Below, piece by piece: positions 26,635 through 42,198 of a stretch of 42,198 bases of DNA. A program made the translations under genes and the position numbers. Within the stretch, counting starts at the first letter, position 1; each line of letters opens with the position of its first letter. Source of the DNA: a virus. Where the stretch lies: IMG/VR virus record IMGVR_UViG_3300042402_002099, positions 1 to 42,198 of that record. One strand, 5' to 3'. The notes under the pieces are model-generated. The model made no database searches. It saw nothing but the letters and a program-made list of their open reading frames with translations, and had not been told where the DNA came from.

Positions 26635-27387
26635 TTAAAAATAAATATTTTTATCTATATAAAATTGTGGATAATTTCCACTAAAACTTATATCCCATAT
26701 TTTATATCTATTATGATTTTGAAAATCACATAAGAATGCAAAATTATCTCTAAGTGGATGGTCATAATTTAATTTTCTTAAATTATTTTCAAATATAATA
26801 TGACTATATTTGTCATAGTAAGTATCGATTATATCCTGTGTATCAACTATGTCTAATTTTTTATTTAAAACAAAAGATAGTTTATATTCAAAATCACCAA
26901 TTGCATTATGTTCTTCGGGCCCTATCATACTACCACATGCAAACCAATAAAAACAATTTTTATATGATTCTTTAATGTCTTTTTCATATTCAATTTTTCC
27001 AATCTCAAATCCATTAACATAACATGTAATTGTTTTTTCATCATTATGGTCACAAATCATAGTATATTCATTAAAATCATTTAACTGGTCTTTTTTTAAT
27101 AAATAAATAACTTGTTTTGGAATTGCAGAACCATCTGGTTTTTTGAACCAATATGTAAATACTATATTACAATTACCATACGAATCTTTGAATGCGGAGA
27201 TTCCCGAATGCATTCCATTTCTAGAAATTATAAATGTTTCTCTTTCCGTTAATACTTCTTCGAATATTTTTGCAGTTACATGTAGTGTAAAGTCCTCATC
27301 CATCCAAGTATCAATTCTACTTGATACCGCATATCTACTTTCAGGTAATACAAAAACTATATTATCTTTATTTATTCTTAAACTCAT
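26635..27387 (-). CDS. ConA-like/LamG-type jelly-roll protein (stand-alone)
   Basis: 250 residues with alternating beta strands and conserved-looking elements of laminin G/ConA-like domains: RESFIISRNG-like segment (TFIISRNG), a YTMICDHNDEKTITCYVNGF stretch (the typical T-x-x-x-x-V-N-G hairpin) and then IGKIEYEKDI. The same domain type forms the C-terminal halves of the two GT7 proteins at 28792-31505. No signal peptide. It overlaps the upstream radical SAM gene by 4 bases. It may bind a glycan as an accessory factor; the role is inferred from fold-like features only. Confidence 0.5.
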   Translation of the reverse strand: MSLRINKDNIVFVLPESRYAVSSRIDTWMDEDFTLHVTAKIFEEVLTERETFIISRNGMHSGISAFKDSYGNCNIVFTYWFKKPDGSAIPKQVIYLLKKDQLNDFNEYTMICDHNDEKTITCYVNGFEIGKIEYEKDIKESYKNCFYWFACGSMIGPEEHNAIGDFEYKLSFVLNKKLDIVDTQDIIDTYYDKYSHIIFENNLRKLNYDHPLRDNFAFLCDFQNHNRYKIWDISFSGNYPQFYIDKNIYF

Positions 27388-28799
27388 AATTGTATTGTTT
27401 TACAGAAGTTGTAAAATTCTTCTAATTCAGGAAATGTTTTTAGAAAATTAGTTCCTCTTCTAATATCGTGATTTGAAAAGTATTGATAAAAATTATATCT
27501 ATTTTTCATTTGTGTTTCAGCATCTTGTGGTGCATTCATCCAATCATAAATTCTTTTTACTTTCTGAACTTCTACATCACTATACCCAATATGTTCGTGA
27601 CTAAAATTAGGTGCTGCATAATATGTAATCAATTTTGCTTGGTCTAAAATGTATTTAGAAAAATCCATTGGTAAAACTTGCACTGCTTGATGGAATGGAT
27701 ATCTAAGATATGACGAATCTAAAAATACTGCAGATGACCAATATCTATCGGTGGATGCATATTCGTCTTTTAATTTATAAACATTATGAATTAATTTCTC
27801 ATAATTAAAAATACTCAATGCATTATAAGTTGACATAAATGTAATAATAACTCTTGGACATTTCGTCATTATTTTATTTATATTATTCCACCATCTATTA
27901 AATTCTAATCCAGTTCTAATATATTCTGCCTGTTCTCCCCAAGTATCTACTGATGTGAAAATTACGATTTCTTTTACTTTACCACCATCTTCGATTTTTT
28001 TTATTTTTTCAATAAATTTATCAACCAAACTATCAGGTATTCCTAAATTAGAATTTATTGCTAATTTTAGCTCTGTGTTTGGATTTGGTTCATTTATAAT
28101 AAAATCCAATACACCCCAAGTATCTTTTGACAATAATGGTTCTCCTCCAGTTATTCTAAATGTATGTAAATCTCTATATAGTTCTGGCCACCATTTCCAA
28201 AATGCTTCTACATATGGATTTGCATCTTTATGTGGAATTGGAAATTTATCTTCTATTTTAAGCCATTCATTTGAATTAAATCTATCAGTTGTTGGGTAGT
28301 GGCCAAATTCTTCAACCTCTTCTACCCATTTAGAACTATATGCAGGGCCACAATATGAACATTTAAAATTACATGCATTTGAGAAAGAAACTTCCACATA
28401 TTTTGGGTTGTAGTCTTCTCTCCAATCTGAATTAAAAATTTCTTCTTTGAATGGGTATGACCAACTTTCTCCTGATTTAAAAACTCTATCACTAAATCTA
28501 TCGGAGTTATCCTCTACATTCCAACAATAATCACACTCACTAGGTCTTGCACCACTCAACATCTCTTTTCTTTTTAATTTCTTAAATCTAGTGTTGTGAA
28601 GTGCAGATGGATTTCTAGCTATTTCGACTTCTGAAATTTTATGGGTTTTTGGATGGTGACATGAGTGATTATGACCACTTTGTAATTGTAGGGTTACTTG
28701 TGTCCATTTTGCCAAACACATACCCGTACCAACCGTATTTAATTCATCTCTTACTTTTACATATAGGGGGTTCTCTATATATGTTTTATCATCACTCAT
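27384..28799 (-). CDS. Radical SAM protein with twitch-type features, copy 3
   Basis: 471 residues. An N-terminal Cys/His-rich region (C28, C47, then SGARPSECDYCWNVED with C89 and C92) precedes the radical SAM motif C143-x3-C147-x2-C150 (ACNFKCSYC) and then FRITGGEPLLSKDT as the SAM-contact GGEP motif. The layout matches the twitch-domain radical SAM proteins I know from marine phages and glycan clusters. The pre-core CxxC is usual in that family and may hold an auxiliary cluster. It overlaps both neighbours by a few bases, so translation is probably coupled. Substrate unknown; it is next to GT7-type transferases. Confidence 0.82.
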   Translation of the reverse strand: MSDDKTYIENPLYVKVRDELNTVGTGMCLAKWTQVTLQLQSGHNHSCHHPKTHKISEVEIARNPSALHNTRFKKLKRKEMLSGARPSECDYCWNVEDNSDRFSDRVFKSGESWSYPFKEEIFNSDWREDYNPKYVEVSFSNACNFKCSYCGPAYSSKWVEEVEEFGHYPTTDRFNSNEWLKIEDKFPIPHKDANPYVEAFWKWWPELYRDLHTFRITGGEPLLSKDTWGVLDFIINEPNPNTELKLAINSNLGIPDSLVDKFIEKIKKIEDGGKVKEIVIFTSVDTWGEQAEYIRTGLEFNRWWNNINKIMTKCPRVIITFMSTYNALSIFNYEKLIHNVYKLKDEYASTDRYWSSAVFLDSSYLRYPFHQAVQVLPMDFSKYILDQAKLITYYAAPNFSHEHIGYSDVEVQKVKRIYDWMNAPQDAETQMKNRYNFYQYFSNHDIRRGTNFLKTFPELEEFYNFCKTIQL

Positions 28800-34291: not shown

Positions 34292-35640
34292 ATTAATTTA
34301 TTTTTTTTGTTTTTTAAAACTGTATTTCTTAGAAGTAAACCATTTACATCATTTATTATTTTACAATAATGATTAAATAATTTTTCTTTGTTTTGTTTAA
34401 TTATTTTATATTTTTCAATATATAATTTTTTTAATTTATTTTGGTTTAATTTTTTTAAAGATTTTATTATCATATCTATTTGTTCAAATTCATTTTTGTC
34501 TTCAATTCCATTTAATTCAAATTCATCTAAAAATAAATCAATACCAATTCTTTTATATTCTTCATATACTTTTTTAGAACCATATATCATAAAAAACTTT
34601 TCGGCCAATATCGGCTTCAATGACTTTTCAGTAAAAAATCCATACTTTAAATTAAATATTGCATGAGTTTCACCAACCACATCTATATAAGAATTATTAT
34701 ACTCTTCATTTAAAAAATAATTTCGTAAATGATTAAATAAAAAATCATGGTCATCTTTGGTGACATTTATTCTATCTATAATTTTTAAAAATTTTTGATA
34801 ATATTCTTTATTAAAATATATTTTGTGGTTATTATTATGTTTTTGTGTACCATCTGTATATATTTTATCCTCTTTGGTTGCAACATTGTATTCATCAATA
34901 AATCTTTCATTTACATTGTTTTCCCCAATATGTAAAACATTATTTTTATCTGCATCTAATAAAAATTTAATTCTATGGTATCTTGGTTTTAAACAAGTAT
35001 GTGAGTATACCTTTGACCTATGTAATTTATTATTTATATTAAATTTTGAAAATATTGTTTTAAAATCAATATGGTATTCTGCAGAAGCGTATGCCATATT
35101 TGGATATAAAACTCGCATCATTTGTCCTTCTGCTAATAAATGAAACAATGAATAAAAAGAATCATAGTAAAAATTTTTCTTATCTTTAAATAATTCATAA
35201 TCTGATATTTTTATATGTTTAAATTTAAAATCATATAAAAAGTATTCTTCTTCATCTTCATAGTTTACAGCTTCTAATATTGCAAAATTAAAAAATACTT
35301 CTACATTTCTTTCAACATATATTTGTTCTAATTTATAGAAATCTGATTTATTGTTTTTTAACAATGGAAAATATAATTCATACCACAATTTTCTATCACA
35401 TATTATAGTCAAATCATTTGGTGGATTTAAATAATATGAATCAATATCAATTAAATTTTTTGAATTTGATATTTTCAAAAATATATCATCTAAATAATGA
35501 TTTATATCAATCAAATCATCTCCGTATTTTATAGTTAATGTATTATAGTAATTGTTTACATATTCCGATTTTACTAAGTCAGCTTCCGGAAATAAACAAT
35601 TCAATTCAAAACTATTACACAATATGTTTAGATACTTCAT
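34288..35640 (-). CDS. Fucosyltransferase-like glycosyltransferase, divergent copy 3
   Basis: 450 residues, extremely rich in Asn, Lys, Ile, Phe and Tyr. The C-terminal region has IDVVGETHA, then FFTEKSLKPILAEKFFMIYG and a following YEEYKRIGIDLF, which matches the E-x-x ... T-E-K-x-x-K-P ... G core of the proteins at 13466 and 20441, so it is placed in the same GT-B/GT10-like group. The first 240 residues show no familiar motif. It is more A/T-rich than its neighbours, a possible sign of separate acquisition. It overlaps both neighbouring genes by 4 bases. Less certain than copies 1 and 2. Confidence 0.55.
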   Translation of the reverse strand: MKYLNILCNSFELNCLFPEADLVKSEYVNNYYNTLTIKYGDDLIDINHYLDDIFLKISNSKNLIDIDSYYLNPPNDLTIICDRKLWYELYFPLLKNNKSDFYKLEQIYVERNVEVFFNFAILEAVNYEDEEEYFLYDFKFKHIKISDYELFKDKKNFYYDSFYSLFHLLAEGQMMRVLYPNMAYASAEYHIDFKTIFSKFNINNKLHRSKVYSHTCLKPRYHRIKFLLDADKNNVLHIGENNVNERFIDEYNVATKEDKIYTDGTQKHNNNHKIYFNKEYYQKFLKIIDRINVTKDDHDFLFNHLRNYFLNEEYNNSYIDVVGETHAIFNLKYGFFTEKSLKPILAEKFFMIYGSKKVYEEYKRIGIDLFLDEFELNGIEDKNEFEQIDMIIKSLKKLNQNKLKKLYIEKYKIIKQNKEKLFNHYCKIINDVNGLLLRNTVLKNKKNKLI

Positions 35641-36611
35641 ATTATTTCTATTATTTCTTTAATCCAATTTTGTTTATTTGTATACTTTGTTAGTCCGTCT
35701 CTTAATTTACAAAATTCTAAATTTACTTTTTCAAAACTATCTTCTTGTAATTCTAAATATCTTTGATGAAATTCTCCTTTAGAATTTGCTCGATATTTGT
35801 AATCAATATGTTTCATCCAATCGGTATGTATAATTGGAACCTTACCACTATCCACTGCATCAAATATTGCATAACCAAATGGTTCTTTTGTATAACATCC
35901 ATGAAATATTTGAAAGTTTCCTTCAAAGAATTTATTATGAAATGTGTAATCAAACTCCATAAACCTATGATAGTCGGAATTTGTATTTGACCCTTCTAAC
36001 ATTCTTTTATAATCATATTTGTTTGAAAATATAATTGATGGAATGTAATCTAAATAATGTGCATTCTTTCTGGTCTCACATCTTGCAGCATATCCAATTT
36101 TATCACTTACAATGCCTGTAAATGGTTTACCATGTTTCCATTCGTAATAATTTGTAATTGTTTTTGTTTTTGGATATTCGTTGTGTATCGTATCGTTCTC
36201 ATATCCTATCCAAACTATGTTATCGGAATTATCTAATATTTCTTTTTGCCATTCCCAATCTACTTTTGTCATTAAATTTTCATAATCGGAATTTAATCCC
36301 AACATATCAGGAATGAAAGCATGGACAAATGTAAGATAAGTTTTGTGTAAATAGTTTTTAATAACAGGATTTGGTTTGTAAGAATGGTGTAAGAAAATAA
36401 TCTTATCACATTCTTTTAATATCCTATCAACTTCTTTTTCGTTTTCGTAAGTGTAGATTGCACCAAATTCTTTAATTAAAGGTCTACCATCAATTACGAT
36501 TTTGTAATCTTCTTTGACTAATGGTAAAATATTTTCTATAAAATTATTGCACCACAAATCGGCACCACCAATAATATTTTTTCCGTAACCTGTTGTAATA
36601 AAAACTATCAT
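35637..36611 (-). CDS. GT-B glycosyltransferase (GT4-like)
   Basis: 324 residues. The N-terminal IVFITTGYGKNIIGGADLWC has the glycine-rich loop seen at the start of GT4-like enzymes. In the C-terminal half KIGYAARCETRKNAHYLDYI provides the R/K donor-phosphate contacts and E243-P-F-G-Y-A-I-F-D-A with SGKVPII corresponds to the E-x7-E motif, though the second acid is Asp. This is a retaining transferase fold that uses nucleotide sugars. It is the first transferase after the oxygenase/polyproline module and could act on hydroxylated residues; that link is inferred from neighbourhood only. Confidence 0.75.
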   Translation of the reverse strand: MIVFITTGYGKNIIGGADLWCNNFIENILPLVKEDYKIVIDGRPLIKEFGAIYTYENEKEVDRILKECDKIIFLHHSYKPNPVIKNYLHKTYLTFVHAFIPDMLGLNSDYENLMTKVDWEWQKEILDNSDNIVWIGYENDTIHNEYPKTKTITNYYEWKHGKPFTGIVSDKIGYAARCETRKNAHYLDYIPSIIFSNKYDYKRMLEGSNTNSDYHRFMEFDYTFHNKFFEGNFQIFHGCYTKEPFGYAIFDAVDSGKVPIIHTDWMKHIDYKYRANSKGEFHQRYLELQEDSFEKVNLEFCKLRDGLTKYTNKQNWIKEIIEII

Positions 36612-36618
36612 AACTTAT

Positions 36619-37194
36619 TTAATTTTCTAAATATTGTTTATCCATTGTAAACCACATTGATAATGTTAATCTTTCACCTTTTTCAATCATTTTTACCCCA
36701 TGCAAACAACTCTCATCACTTTTAAATATTAAAACTGAACCTTTTTGTGGTGTACATTCATATTCTATTTCATTTGAGTTTTCTTTCATTATTATAGTTT
36801 CACCTCCTTCAAAATCATCATTAATATACATCACTGCAGTGAAGGTTCTCATATGTAAAATATGTTTGTCATTGTCATATCCATTATCTTTATGAATTGC
36901 CATTGATTTACCTTCCTTCCACATTACTAATGTGGTAACATTTGGGAATACATTTACACCATACGATTTTTTTATTAAATTTGTTATAATTTCTCTACAT
37001 TTACCTATTTCATTTTTAATTTCGGTATTTTTTAAAAGATTCCAATACAAAGTGTTTTCTTCAAACCAAGGTAAAATATGAATATCATTTATACCATTAC
37101 TATGATTATTTTTATAGTAATTAAAAATAGTATCACACTCTAAACTTGATATAATATTATCGTACTTAAAAATTAAATTTTCTTTTATAATCAT
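36619..37194 (-). CDS. 2-oxoglutarate/Fe(II) oxygenase (prolyl-4-hydroxylase type), copy B
   Basis: 191 residues of double-stranded beta-helix pattern. H101-x-D103 (AIHKDNGYD), YINDDFEGGETII, PQKGSVLIFKSDESCLHGVK with distal H165, and R175 in GERLTLSMWF that binds 2-oxoglutarate: all four cofactor residues are present. The family includes prolyl and lysyl hydroxylases and many phage-encoded members. It follows the polyproline protein by 10 bases and is a relative of the oxygenase upstream of that gene (37909-38391). Confidence 0.87.
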   Translation of the reverse strand: MIIKENLIFKYDNIISSLECDTIFNYYKNNHSNGINDIHILPWFEENTLYWNLLKNTEIKNEIGKCREIITNLIKKSYGVNVFPNVTTLVMWKEGKSMAIHKDNGYDNDKHILHMRTFTAVMYINDDFEGGETIIMKENSNEIEYECTPQKGSVLIFKSDESCLHGVKMIEKGERLTLSMWFTMDKQYLEN

Positions 37195-37204
37195 AATTTA
37201 TTTA

Positions 37205-37900
37205 TTATGCACACTCCACACAATCACCATTTGTAGTACATGGGTCTGGACAAGATGATACTGTCATTAATCCAGAATCAGAGTTTATATCTGTACCATT
37301 TTGCACACATACTGTTCTAGAAGACCCTGGTCCAACAGTCAATTCGTCTAAAATACCATCCGAACATCTATTATATGTGAATGTTATACCACCATCGTTA
37401 CGTCCACCCTCATTAGTAACCCTATAACATTCACATTCAGGTGATGTACCACCATCACATGTTCCTGTACTATTAATAGTTCCTGAATTATTATTAACAT
37501 AATACCAATTGTCCCCTATTGAATACCAACCAGATAGAACAGTTCTTAATAGCTCTGGTTCTGCATCAAAATATGTATATAATATACAATTTGCAATCAA
37601 AGTTTGACAGGTACTATAAATAGTGATAATAGGGCCTAATGAATCACATGCATCCTGTGCACTTGTTGTACTACGAATAGCTGGAAATGAATAATATGTC
37701 GGAGCCGGTGGAGGTGGTGGTGGCGGAGGAGGCGGTGGTGGAGGAGGAGGGCCGGGTTTACTATATCCTAAAAATTCTTTCATACCATGTGGTGCAGTTT
37801 TTCCAGCAGCTTCGGAATATACTCTTAATATATTAGATGTAGAACCCAATTCAGCTTTAATTTGTGACATCGATATAGGTCCGGTACTTTGTAACGCCAT
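37205..37900 (-). CDS. Tail-associated protein with 15-proline linker and Cys-rich C-terminus
   Basis: 231 residues in three parts. Residues 1-46 (MALQSTGPISMSQIKAELGS ... KTAPHGMKEFLGY) resemble the short N-terminal module of many phage tail/fibre proteins. Residues 51-65 are 15 consecutive prolines followed by A-P. The C-terminal 160 residues contain 12 cysteines in a beta-rich domain with CYRVTNEGG, ITFTYNRCSDG and LTVGPGSSRTVCVQN segments, resembling repeats in Bacteroidota phage structural proteins. It sits between two P4H-type oxygenases and next to the tail fibre gene, so the polyproline may be a hydroxylated rigid rod. The proline codons are mixed (CCT, CCA, CCG), which argues for selection and against slippage. 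Confidence 0.7.
   Translation of the reverse strand: MALQSTGPISMSQIKAELGSTSNILRVYSEAAGKTAPHGMKEFLGYSKPGPPPPPPPPPPPPPPPAPTYYSFPAIRSTTSAQDACDSLGPIITIYSTCQTLIANCILYTYFDAEPELLRTVLSGWYSIGDNWYYVNNNSGTINSTGTCDGGTSPECECYRVTNEGGRNDGGITFTYNRCSDGILDELTVGPGSSRTVCVQNGTDINSDSGLMTVSSCPDPCTTNGDCVECA
37706..37750 (-). other. 15-codon polyproline tract
   Basis: Fifteen consecutive CCN codons with varied third bases, encoding a polyproline-II linker of about 45 A if fully extended. It is the most GC-rich spot in the region. Runs of this length stall ribosomes unless EF-P is present. Confidence 0.9.
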
Positions 37901-37908
37901 ATATTATT

Positions 37909-38391
37909 TTATTTAGGCCAACAATTTAATGAATATCTTTTTCCATCGGTTAATTTTTTAACTCCATGTAAAATATTTGAATCAAAAATAAATATACTTC
38001 CCTGTTTTTTGGGTAACATAATTTCTACATCATTTAGTAAATAGTAAAAATCACCACCATCATACTCTTCATTTAATTGAATAATAATAGTAATAGTTCC
38101 ACCTCTTGCAACTTCACTACTATCTGGATGTAATTCTAATTCATTGTCAATATCATAAGAATTAAATACAAAATATTGTATATTAGTATATTGTTTATCA
38201 AATATATCTAATTCATTTAATTTATTAATTATTTTATTTTCAATATCAAATTGTATTGATTCTACAAACGTACACCTTCTTTCTATAACATTTATTGAGT
38301 TAAATACTGGTTGTGAATTAAATTTATATTGATTTATTATAAAATTACACTCCTCTATTGTTAGAAAGTTTTCTATTAAATTTGTATACAT
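37909..38391 (-). CDS. 2-oxoglutarate/Fe(II) oxygenase (prolyl-4-hydroxylase type), copy A
   Basis: 160 residues; H88-x-D90 (LELHPDSSE), YDGGDFYYL, QGSIFIFDSNILHGVK with distal H142, and R152 in GKRYSLNCW. These are the metal-binding facial triad and the 2-oxoglutarate Arg of the P4H/PKHD group. It is shorter at the N-terminus than copy B but has the full catalytic core. It lies 1 base after the tail-fibre gene and 8 bases before the polyproline protein, consistent with co-expression. Substrate is not known. Confidence 0.88.
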   Translation of the reverse strand: MYTNLIENFLTIEECNFIINQYKFNSQPVFNSINVIERRCTFVESIQFDIENKIINKLNELDIFDKQYTNIQYFVFNSYDIDNELELHPDSSEVARGGTITIIIQLNEEYDGGDFYYLLNDVEIMLPKKQGSIFIFDSNILHGVKKLTDGKRYSLNCWPK

Positions 38392-38392
38392 A

Positions 38393-41300
38393 TTATTTAT
38401 TCTTTTTTAATTCTTCGATTTCTTTTTTTAATTCTTTAATAGATTCCACTAATAATGGAACTATTTTTTCATATTGAATTGTTAGATAATTTTCACCCGA
38501 TTTACTTTGGTTGGTATGATTTATTGTATCAAATGGTGCAAGTGAAACGATTTCAGGCATAACCTCTTGAACTTCTTGTGCAATAAATCCAACTTCTCTT
38601 TTATTTGTATTTTTTTGATTTAGTTCTTTAGCTGTTTCGTTCCAATTAAAGTATACACCATTTATTTTAGATAATTTTTCCAAAGGTGAATCTATGTTAA
38701 TTATGTTTGTTTTTAATCTTTTATCGGACGTATTTGCAACTACATCACCAAGAACACGCAATTCCGTTCCATCTAATGTTGCCCATGTATCTCCATTTAT
38801 TTTACCCCACGAAAACCCATTTTCTGCTATACTTACGATTGTCCTACTTGTTGTTTCTAATCCAGGTACTCCACAATTTGTTACAATAGTATATCCTCTT
38901 ATAGCACCAAGTAAACTACTATTTTTTTGGTCAATAAATCTAAAATCCGAACCAGGTTCTAAAAAAAATGATGGTGATGTACATGTACCACCATTTATAT
39001 AGTGATATCCTATGATATTATTTTGACCAGAGTAATTTAAAGTTCCACCTATGGTAGTATTACCGGATATACTAACATTACCACTACTATCTACTTGAAA
39101 TTTATTAGGGCCGATATTAATAGTACCACCTGTTATAGTAGCACCACTTAATGTTCCACTAAATGTACCACTTGCACCCGTAATATCTCCTTTGAAAAAT
39201 GCATTACCTGATGTATCAATGTAGAATTGAGGTGCATGTATGGAACCACCACTATATAAAGTTATACCTGCTGTTGAATATCCAGATGTATCTTTTGTTC
39301 CACTAAATATTGAATCACTATCTATTTTCCAACCACCAACCTGACCCGCAGTTTTGTTCGAATTATTTTGTTGAGCAGTTGCACCTGCTGCAGCACCATC
39401 TTTAACGGTTGTTGCAGATGTACCACCAATAGTTGCAGTTCCTGAAATTGAAACACTTCCTGCTATTGTAACACCTTCGGACTCAGTAAATTTAATATAT
39501 GCACCAGACGGGTCACCAAATCTCATACTACCCGTTGTATCTAAGTAATATCCTTTCCCGGCCATCAATGCAGTTGCGTTTGCACTTCTAATAAATCCTT
39601 TATCACTTACACCATATGTTCCCATTACTAAACCTCTTGTAATAGTTGCATCTTGTGCCAAAAGGATATCTGTTGCAACCGAACTAAATGTTGCACCAAA
39701 TGAACTCCATTGATTTAAATATGATGTACCAGTTATTGGTTTATCCACTGCACCATCTGCAGTAGATGTGTGTCCTACTTTTGTTAAATAGTATTGTGAA
39801 TTACTACCTCGTACAACATCTATTCTAACGGATGATGAAAAATATGCCGTATTTGGTGCCCAATCTCCTCTATAAACTACACCTGGTCCTGTACCACCAT
39901 CTGCACCATCCAAACCAGGTGTCCCTGCAGCTCCCGTATTCACTTTTGTAAATCTTACTACAATCGTTTGTGTTTGACCAGTAGTACCTTCACTATCACT
40001 ATGTGTTACAACAATTGTAGCAGATGCTTCAGCTGCATTCATTACCGCAGATGTCATTGTTAATGTTGCACCACTAATTGTTGGGTTAGTAGAAAATCCG
40101 GTATAAGTTGCAGTCATAGATGTGAATCTACTCGTAGTTCCTTCTAATGCAGATACTGTCACATTTGACAAAATTCCAGTTTGAACACCAGATGCATTTG
40201 CTAATACCGATTGTGCTTGTGGAGTTGCAGATATAACTACATTTGGAACTGCCGTTTTTGATTTTGAAACAGTTGCAATTATATTTTTAGTACCCGATAC
40301 TCCTTCACTATCTGTATAATTAACAGGTATTGTTACTTGACCCGTATCGGAAAACATCGAAGAAGCCGTTGATGTAAATGTTATGGTATTGGTCGAAACT
40401 GTACCTGCCAATCCGTTTGTATATGTTGGAGTACCTATTGATGTGAAACGACTAGTATTACCTTCCAATGCCGTTATTGTCAAAGTTGTAGGTGATGCAG
40501 AACCGCTACCTCGTGAATTTGAAGATATTGATTGTGCGGATGGAGATACTGCGACAACAACATTTGGAGTTCCTACTTTTGATTTAGTATATGTTACTAA
40601 TTTTGTTGTATCAGATGTATCACCTGCACCATCTTTATATCGTATAGTCAAATTCAAAGAACCACTATCAGCATCTAATCTTGTTATGAAATAATCGGTT
40701 GTTGAATAATTCAATGAACCAGTTTGAACATTTGTTGCAACAGCCGATATAACATCAAATCTATTATTTGCAGTTAATCCATTACTATGTGCTATAATTT
40801 CATTACCAACTTTAACACTAACTGAACCACTACTCAATACGAAAGAACCACTTTCTACAAATCCAGTAGAACGTGCCGGTAGTGATGCATTATCGTTTGT
40901 CAAAGATACGGATAATCCATCCAATATTTTTACAGGACTTATTTTGATTGCATCGGAAAATACATTACCAAATTGGTCGGAACCAGAAATAGAATAAATT
41001 GTCTCACCAGTTGAATATGGATATGAAGTTCCAGATATCGTATAAGTATCCACACCATTGGTTGCATTCGTAGATACCAATGTTAATGGTGGTTTACCAC
41101 TTCCAGAATTTACAGTTAAAGGTGTAGTTGCCGATGCCAAATTTTTTCTTTTAGCCTCTATTGTAATAACCTGTCCTGTTGGGTTTAAAGATAAATCGGT
41201 TGCTTTATAAATAAATTGATTTGTATTTGCAGTTACGAATACACCCGGAGCATTATCCCCATCTTCAAATCTATAAATTGTTTCAAATTCCTGAAATCCT

Positions 41301-42198
41301 TCACATGATGCTGTATAAACAATTGAACCAACTAATACACTTGCAACACTTCCACTAAAACTGGCTATATTTAAAAGTGCACCATTATCATTTTGAGATA
41401 CAAATGCACCTGGATATGCACCGGCGTAAGTTGATGGTTGAATATAATTACCACCAACATCAAATGCAGATGATGCATATGTTATGGAACCTGTAAAATT
41501 AGTTCTTATAGTTTTAAATCTTACCGATTGATTTGGTGGATTTGCAAAAGACCCAGATGAAAATCTAAATGCAGTTCTATCGGACTCAAAAGTTAATAAT
41601 TTTGTAATTGTATTTGAACCACCTGTAAAATTTGCACTTTGTGTAACAAATACAGGTACATAGTTATTATTAACATCAAAAAATTCAAACTTAAAATTAA
41701 AATCTTCATTACCAATTACCGTAGGCATTGGAGTTATAAAAGAAATCTCATCAGGAGAAAATGCAGTATCTTGTGATAATCGTAAACTAATATTTCCTAA
41801 ATGCCACTCACCCTGTGATTGTGAAAAGTATAAACTTGCAGATGGATAATCTCTATCAATTTTAAATGGTATAGTAGTGTCTAATAAATTTTTAGTTGGT
41901 TGTGTTCCTGTTAATGTTGCAAGACTACTTGTAAATGTTGTAGATTGAGAAACATAACTTAAATATATCCCCAAATTACTAGATGTGGATGCCGAATAAA
42001 ATGCATCTAAATTTAATTCATATGTATTTGCACTTTTTAAATCTAAAGATGATGTGTATGTTAATTTTCCGCTACCATTCATCTTTATACCATTTTCAAC
42101 TCTACTATTTGACAATTGTACATTCAATGAACCGGTATTCCAAAAGTTTTTAAAGGTTTCCGATGTAAATGTTCCTGTATTTCCAATAACACTTCCAG
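38393..42198 (-). CDS. Tail fibre / long structural protein with S74 chaperone (5' end outside the window)
   Basis: At least 1267 residues visible. The frame stays open through the right edge, so the TTG at 42127 is not the start. It is mostly beta-rich with Ser/Thr/Gly. Two tandem units of about 105 residues begin SKVGTPNVVVAVSPSAQSIS and SKTAVPNVVISATPQAQSVL, each with an A-L-E-G-(N/T)-T-S-R-F-T-S segment; the start of a third leads into a short collagen-like G-x-y stretch. A GTFSGTLSGATITGGTINIG-type shaft segment follows. The C-terminus is a peptidase S74 intramolecular chaperone: SDKRLKTNI (Ser at codon 38726-38728, probable autocleavage point), GVYFNWN and GFIAQEVQEVMPEIV, then a coiled coil. 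It should be a trimeric host-binding fibre. Confidence 0.9.
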   Translation of the reverse strand, partial: GSVIGNTGTFTSETFKNFWNTGSLNVQLSNSRVENGIKMNGSGKLTYTSSLDLKSANTYELNLDAFYSASTSSNLGIYLSYVSQSTTFTSSLATLTGTQPTKNLLDTTIPFKIDRDYPSASLYFSQSQGEWHLGNISLRLSQDTAFSPDEISFITPMPTVIGNEDFNFKFEFFDVNNNYVPVFVTQSANFTGGSNTITKLLTFESDRTAFRFSSGSFANPPNQSVRFKTIRTNFTGSITYASSAFDVGGNYIQPSTYAGAYPGAFVSQNDNGALLNIASFSGSVASVLVGSIVYTASCEGFQEFETIYRFEDGDNAPGVFVTANTNQFIYKATDLSLNPTGQVITIEAKRKNLASATTPLTVNSGSGKPPLTLVSTNATNGVDTYTISGTSYPYSTGETIYSISGSDQFGNVFSDAIKISPVKILDGLSVSLTNDNASLPARSTGFVESGSFVLSSGSVSVKVGNEIIAHSNGLTANNRFDVISAVATNVQTGSLNYSTTDYFITRLDADSGSLNLTIRYKDGAGDTSDTTKLVTYTKSKVGTPNVVVAVSPSAQSISSNSRGSGSASPTTLTITALEGNTSRFTSIGTPTYTNGLAGTVSTNTITFTSTASSMFSDTGQVTIPVNYTDSEGVSGTKNIIATVSKSKTAVPNVVISATPQAQSVLANASGVQTGILSNVTVSALEGTTSRFTSMTATYTGFSTNPTISGATLTMTSAVMNAAEASATIVVTHSDSEGTTGQTQTIVVRFTKVNTGAAGTPGLDGADGGTGPGVVYRGDWAPNTAYFSSSVRIDVVRGSNSQYYLTKVGHTSTADGAVDKPITGTSYLNQWSSFGATFSSVATDILLAQDATITRGLVMGTYGVSDKGFIRSANATALMAGKGYYLDTTGSMRFGDPSGAYIKFTESEGVTIAGSVSISGTATIGGTSATTVKDGAAAGATAQQNNSNKTAGQVGGWKIDSDSIFSGTKDTSGYSTAGITLYSGGSIHAPQFYIDTSGNAFFKGDITGASGTFSGTLSGATITGGTINIGPNKFQVDSSGNVSISGNTTIGGTLNYSGQNNIIGYHYINGGTCTSPSFFLEPGSDFRFIDQKNSSLLGAIRGYTIVTNCGVPGLETTSRTIVSIAENGFSWGKINGDTWATLDGTELRVLGDVVANTSDKRLKTNIINIDSPLEKLSKINGVYFNWNETAKELNQKNTNKREVGFIAQEVQEVMPEIVSLAPFDTINHTNQSKSGENYLTIQYEKIVPLLVESIKELKKEIEELKKNK
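39940..40590 (-). repeat. Two tandem domain repeats in the tail fibre
   Basis: Two units of about 318 bp each encode similar domains beginning with P-N-V-V and sharing an ALEG(N/T)TSRFTS block. A partial third unit start (FTKVNTG) follows. Boundaries are approximate. The repeats probably form immunoglobulin-like spacer domains of the fibre. Confidence 0.7.

Follow-up and report, generated by a model that had tools for sequence, protein, structure and literature searches.

In a phage tail region, a gene for a polyproline protein lies between two genes for 2-oxoglutarate (2OG)/Fe(II) oxygenases, which raises the question of whether the phage hydroxylates a protein of its own and, if so, where. 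The window, i.e. the whole stretch of DNA analysed (42,198 bases of a virus record), encodes a T4-type terminase, a portal and a head protease. The cassette is composed of three ORFs of 191, 231 and 160 aa, all on the minus strand and at the positions assigned to them by the original prediction, which took them for a module that hydroxylates, and possibly glycosylates, a polyproline rod on the tail. The features are as follows.

38393..42196, minus strand: tail fibre protein ending in a Peptidase_S74 chaperone, running off the window; upstream border of the site
37909..38391, minus strand: Ox2, compact 2OG/Fe(II) oxygenase with prolyl-hydroxylase fold, 160 aa (H88, D90, H142, R152)
37205..37900, minus strand: polyproline protein, 231 aa, with adaptor-like N-terminus, P15 rod, ~75-aa module and Cys-rich C-terminus; relatives in L003, L180 and L181
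37760..37900, minus strand: adaptor domain, residues 1-47 (MALQSTGPISMSQIKAELG...KEFLGYS), which begins alternative proteins at the same site
37706..37750, minus strand: 15-proline tract, residues 51-65, candidate substrate
37208..37483, minus strand: Cys-rich C-terminal domain, residues 140-231, also present in the Pro-less protein of L004
36619..37194, minus strand: Ox1, 2OG/Fe(II) oxygenase, prolyl 3-hydroxylase-like, 191 aa (H101, D103, H165, R175)
35637..36611, minus strand: glycosyltransferase (GT)-like protein, 324 aa, conserved; downstream border of the site, with or without the Pro-rich cassette

The polyproline protein

The run of 15 prolines (P15) and the 12 cysteines claimed for the middle ORF were both confirmed. 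Because proline makes up 3.1% of the residues in the minus-strand ORF set of the window, where the second-longest proline run is two, P15 is not a product of chance; nor is it a recent triplet expansion, since three codons are in use (six CCT, six CCA and three CCG). The tract is single and unbroken, and Ser-Pro repeats are absent from the protein; the repeated Ser-Pro(n) motifs implied by the proposed extensin-type analogy were thus not found. P15 is followed by a 'WYS-G/YSDG' module of about 75 aa common to other proteins of the site, and the adaptor domain precedes Pro, Thr, Gly or no linker in the alternative proteins encoded there. Annotated phages searched with the polyproline protein gave no match, and the adaptor domain alone as query returned chance-level matches only. 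Judging from its place after the S74 fibre and from its adaptor domain, the polyproline protein is probably a virion tail component.

Two oxygenases of the prolyl-hydroxylase fold group

Both oxygenases match PF13640 (Ox1, 3.8e-13, 50.7 bits; Ox2, 3.2e-09, 38.1 bits; curated cut-off 27). AlphaFold2 models, Foldseek matches and the residues themselves give each a double-stranded beta-helix fold with the HxD...H triad and a basic 2OG anchor, and the catalytic residues expected by the original prediction are all retained (H101-x-D103/H165/R175 in Ox1, H88-x-D90/H142/R152 in Ox2). In both enzymes the anchor is an Arg, ten residues past the distal His. The Lys ten residues after the distal His, which is the hallmark of collagen/plant-type prolyl 4-hydroxylases (P4Hs), is found in neither Ox1 nor Ox2; the (PT)n-linked P4Hs of cousin loci carry Lys as the 2OG anchor.

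The nearest solved sequence to Ox1 is human prolyl 3-hydroxylase 1 (collagen P3H1/leprecan; 2e-10), followed by a bacterial P4H, and its model (pLDDT 86.8) matches P3H1 (2e-12), PBCV-1 vCPH, PHD2 and B. anthracis P4H, as well as the algal P4H crystallised with (Ser-Pro)5. Unlike P3H1, Ox1 is a stand-alone catalytic domain of 191 aa, without the large N-terminal region or the CRTAP/PPIB partners, and what it is proposed to act on is a Pro tract instead of a collagen triplet. Ox2 has no significant PDB sequence match (top match PiuC, E 0.13), and the 50 best folds for its model (pLDDT 94.9) are mostly prolyl hydroxylases, among them P. putida P4H, PHD2 and PBCV-1 vCPH. The models therefore assign both enzymes to the prolyl-hydroxylase fold group, with sequence as a second line of evidence for Ox1 but not for Ox2, so that the label 'P4H-type' holds for the fold group but not for Ox1 in the strict sense, as its nearest relative is P3H1. 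The fold does not fix the substrate, being common to PiuC-type and further 2OG enzymes. The PHROG labels 'DNA endonuclease' and 'ferrochelatase' for these oxygenases look like transferred annotations and were set aside.

Co-occurrence at a swap site

Relatives were collected with the neighbouring 324-aa GT-like gene as anchor, which is blind to proline and oxygenase; the scan returned 60 loci, of which 52 are distinct. What lies between the S74 fibre and the GT-like gene varies among these phages, which makes this gap a swap site: in some loci nothing stands there, in others an adaptor protein, whose linker can be polyproline, (PT)n, polyThr or Gly or be missing, and in others still different genes. 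If the oxygenases serve the proline tract, the two should be found together in relatives, and this is what the GT-marked loci show: a Pro-rich gene and an oxygenase are both present in six, both absent in 46, and discordant in none of the 52 (p = 5e-8 before allowing for relatedness). The refuting case named with the original prediction, relatives that keep both oxygenases without a Pro-rich partner, did not occur among these loci, so that this check favours hydroxylation. With L250 and L267 added from the fibre scan, an oxygenase stands within five genes of 8/8 Pro-rich adaptor proteins vs 0/14 others (p = 3e-6), although such p-values are overstated because the loci are related by descent; collapsed to lineages, the figures are 4/4 vs 0/10 (p = 1e-3). 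The borderline and discordant case is L190/L292, whose (TxTP)n linker has 17 Thr and up to 9 Pro per 30 residues and which has no oxygenase in 57 kb; counting it as Pro-rich gives 8/9 vs 0/13 (p = 2.8e-5).

Whole-record searches with PF13640 revealed oxygenases elsewhere in some of these records, for instance at a distance of about 20 kb in G010 and G016 or on the upstream side of the fibre in G007 and G023, but none at the site. In G010 (L313, 3281-6205) and G016 (L314, 3179-6111) three-oxygenase clusters lie in sugar-nucleotide gene regions, with one oxygenase fused to an epimerase-like domain (535 aa).

Linker type and neighbouring enzyme are thus exchanged together at the swap site. Because oxygenases occur at the site only alongside a Pro-rich linker, they probably serve to hydroxylate components of the phage's own tail. 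For the window, our main reading, drawn from sequence comparison and models, is that the P15 tract is hydroxylated by Ox1, by Ox2 or by both, with Ox1 the likelier of the two; we give it a probability of roughly 60%.

Linker and enzyme across adaptor types

At the site, Pro-rich linkers are accompanied by oxygenases of three diverged groups, between which local identity is about 24-38%: the Ox1 group (window and L180, where an orthologue 83% identical adjoins a polyproline protein), the Ox3 group (L003 and L181, 69% identity) and the P4H group (L143, L167, L308 and L309, 58-88% identity). Ox1 pairs with a MALQ-type adaptor in the window and an MSQSM-type adaptor in L180, and Ox3 with a MALP-type adaptor in L003 and an MSQSM-type adaptor in L181. 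The MSQSM adaptors of L180 and L146 are 86% identical; the former goes with polyproline and Ox1, the latter with a Gly linker, and a PF13640 search across 89 kb of L146 gave no match. The 75-aa module recurs in the Pro-less proteins of L165, L169, L174 and L176, which have no oxygenase at their site. Since both this module and the C-terminal domain also occur in Pro-less proteins, it is the linker that tracks the enzyme, and the module and the C-terminal domain were rejected as oxygenase-tracking features.

The co-occurrence could still be spurious, produced by shared descent and low counts, as the independent lineages are few (about four Pro-rich) and the linkage could reflect inheritance as a block. 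This is very improbable given the lineage-collapsed p of 1e-3 and the fact that the pairing persists even as lineages of enzyme and adaptor recombine; because three oxygenase groups pair across differing adaptor types, more than a one-time block inheritance appears to be involved.

The P4H of L143, from the (PT)n loci, matches the B. anthracis, Chlamydomonas and human collagen P4Hs (4e-28 to 2e-17). In L143 (4921-5994), L167 (4942-5994) and L308 (6149-7255) the P4H is fused to a second C-terminal domain with an H(T/K)D...H pattern, a tandem double oxygenase whose second domain resembles cyanophage ORFs labelled 'ferrochelatase'. Both Ox3 loci have a DUF6065-type protein after Ox3 (PF19541 in L003, 1297-2028; L181, 5267-6004). 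A Hint/intein-like domain past a Gly11 or Pro11 linker was observed in tail-adaptor-type proteins of L237 (13100-13792) and L267 (6556-7260).

Which enzyme, and which target

The two oxygenases differ in the company that their relatives keep. Ox1 and Ox3 were seen only with polyproline proteins in the scans done. The nearest relatives of Ox2 (41-49% identical), and the Ox2-type relatives L200-L214, lie in islands without a Pro-rich gene, of a halogenase/sulfotransferase-like character. On the grounds of these relatives Ox2 is the weaker of the two partners for the Pro tract. The roles may accordingly be split within the main reading, with Ox1 acting on the Pro tract and Ox2 elsewhere, e.g. on the S74 fibre, or being a neutral passenger; the position of the Ox2 gene between the tail fibre and the polyproline gene fits this, while the prolyl-hydroxylase fold of Ox2 and the presence of two oxygenase domains in other cassettes (fused in L143, L167 and L308) speak against it. 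We regard this sub-case as a tentative one, clearly below an even chance.

Alternatively, the oxygenases could have a different target, be it a further tail protein, a sugar, a small molecule or, on the host side, a protein like EF-Tu, with the polyproline an unmodified spacer in a shared hypervariable island. EF-Tu P4Hs have the same fold, the site is rich in sugar enzymes and the Ox2 relatives are at home in halogenase/sulfotransferase-like islands. Oxygenase arrays behind tail genes without a Pro-rich partner are also common, as in cyanophages S-SSM5, S-CAM8 and S-SM1. This alternative is nevertheless unlikely: it accounts neither for the absence of discordant loci at the site nor for the way in which oxygenases of three diverged groups keep turning up with Pro-rich linkers. 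The originally predicted hydroxylation of a Pro-rich protein from the tail region is thus favoured by the co-occurrence (6/46/0; 8/8 vs 0/14) and by the fold, but the Ox2 relatives without a Pro-rich gene weaken it for one of the two enzymes.

Glycosylation

The original prediction also had a GT-B glycosyltransferase directly next to the cassette that might glycosylate the rod. The adjoining gene is there, and its EPFGYAIFDAVDSGKVPIIH stretch resembles GT-B enzymes by eye, but the GT-B assignment is not backed by profiles, as Pfam, PHROG, NCBIfam and PDB profiles gave no convincing match. Because this gene is conserved irrespective of proline, in dozens of Pro-less phages, it is not a dedicated partner of the tract; it was rejected as a dedicated hydroxyproline glycosyltransferase, and glycosylation by it is not supported for the window. 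In L250 and L267 a PF11397 protein is encoded between the Pro-rich gene and the P4H (1e-37 and 8e-32; L250 7585-8457, L267 from 7282, the whole gene being L309 883-2787), and among 37 records searched PF11397 occurs in these two only, being absent from the sister record of the window. PF11397 is the family that adds GlcNAc to Skp1 hydroxyproline. A full hydroxyproline-glycoprotein module in this phage, with hydroxylated prolines then glycosylated by the adjacent GT-like protein, would find a parallel in L250 and L267; with PF11397 missing from the sister record and the GT-like gene kept regardless of proline, we consider it improbable.

Pro-rich, collagen-like and Thr-rich partners elsewhere

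Beyond the site, a scan was made with the P4H of the (PT)n loci as query. In a different phage tail locus (L321, 6016-8555) a 557-aa protein with a P12 tract is followed directly by a 268-aa Lys-type P4H. A distant P4H-like phage family of 191 aa (L330-L381) has, in about half of its loci, a collagen-like (Gly-Pro-Thr)n tail protein encoded one to three genes away. A collagen-like gene is present within three genes of 31/62 oxygenases of the P4H scan, against a rough background of 21/1227 genes from a different sample of viral contigs. Counting Pro-rich and collagen-like genes together, 36/62 oxygenases of the P4H scan have one within three genes vs 0/45 of the Ox2 scan. The cultured cyanophages S-CAM9 and S-PRM1 encode a P4H-like enzyme, 48-49% identical, three genes past a collagen-like tail protein with a 177-aa Gly-X-Y stretch. 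The independent pairing in L321 and in the collagen-linked loci argues further against an artefact of shared descent. No Pro-rich gene was found near the P4Hs of Erwinia Y3, Salmonella Sen-NF, Microcystis Mel-JY01 and L322-L329. Polyproline alone was rejected as a predictor of oxygenases, because none of 32 unrelated viral contigs with polyproline (P>=9) has an oxygenase nearby; many matches of this pattern search are out of frame.

A parallel was observed for threonine. Downstream of Thr-rich adaptor proteins at this site comes a GT-like family of 307-338 aa. For 7/7 distinct members found (L137, L168, L190/L292, L293, L295, L301 and L302, the last two not used in building the family model), a protein with 17-26 Thr in 30 residues is encoded immediately upstream or one gene further off. 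The family has no credible Pfam or PDB match; an HDSDI-type stretch is, by eye, reminiscent of DxD glycosyltransferases. This 7/7 pairing therefore suggests a general rule, in which linker type and modifying enzyme are exchanged together for Thr as well as Pro. Radical SAM-type proteins are also encoded in the tail/sugar region, in L293 (14198-15283) and in the window (27384-28799).

Proposed mechanism and known systems

The best view of the locus is that of a linker-matched tail-modification cassette. Its gene order suggests that the adaptor protein is made together with other tail proteins. Fold, active site and co-occurrence point to a step in the cytoplasm in which Ox1, and possibly Ox2, would hydroxylate the P15 prolines using O2, 2-oxoglutarate and Fe(II). 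Hydroxyproline may then stiffen the polyproline-II rod or alter its surface, the rod presumably keeping the adaptor apart from the Cys-rich distal domain. In some cousins the PF11397 enzyme may cap the hydroxyproline with a sugar.

Virus-encoded prolyl hydroxylases (PBCV-1, mimivirus L593) and P4H genes in aquatic viruses are already known, and PBCV-1 vCPH is among the top fold matches of both Ox1 and Ox2. Those two viruses infect eukaryotes, whereas here the enzyme gene adjoins a candidate substrate gene. Mimivirus L593 hydroxylates human collagen III in E. coli (PMC9546862). Virions of PBCV-1 showed no hydroxyproline although the viral P4H has in vitro activity (PMC7019647), a precedent that counts against hydroxylation of P15. 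As in the algal and plant P4Hs that act on hydroxyproline-rich wall proteins, the P4H of L143, which matches that of Chlamydomonas (7e-21), and its relative in L167 adjoin (PT)n proteins; the window differs in having one P15 tract, no Ser-Pro repeats and Arg-type instead of Lys-type enzymes. The Skp1 pathway, a prolyl hydroxylase plus Gnt1 (PF11397), is resembled by the P4H, PF11397 and Pro-rich protein of L250 and L267 but not by the sister record of the window, which is without PF11397; in Skp1 the glycan is linked via hydroxyproline (PMC11570480). The 2OG-Fe(II) oxygenase arrays of cyanophages share the superfamily and the place behind tail fibre genes, but the proposals made for them, 2OG/nitrogen status and DNA repair (PMC3037559), differ from tail-protein hydroxylation. 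P4H genes are reported to be abundant in aquatic viruses, and their viral use 'remains cryptic' (PMC9301287). No report of prolyl hydroxylation of phage tails or tail linkers was found in the open-access literature searched, where absence is not proof.

Taken at its widest, the idea is that tailed phages carry linker-matched modification cassettes, with prolyl hydroxylases for polyproline, (PT)n and collagen-like GPT linkers and a GT-like family for Thr-rich ones, and that hydroxyproline, in some cases with a sugar attached, is therefore a constituent of their tails as it is of collagen, extensins or Skp1; we hold this to be possible, somewhat short of an even chance. The locus and its relatives point to a specific and testable substrate, the Pro-rich linkers of the phage's own tail proteins, which, if true, would answer the question of what phage prolyl hydroxylases are for. 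Phages, too, would then be producers of hydroxyproline proteins, one class of 'auxiliary metabolic genes' would turn out to be virion-maturation genes, and phage assembly would be tied to oxygen and iron. Such cassettes would also be a source of small stand-alone hydroxylases together with their substrates.
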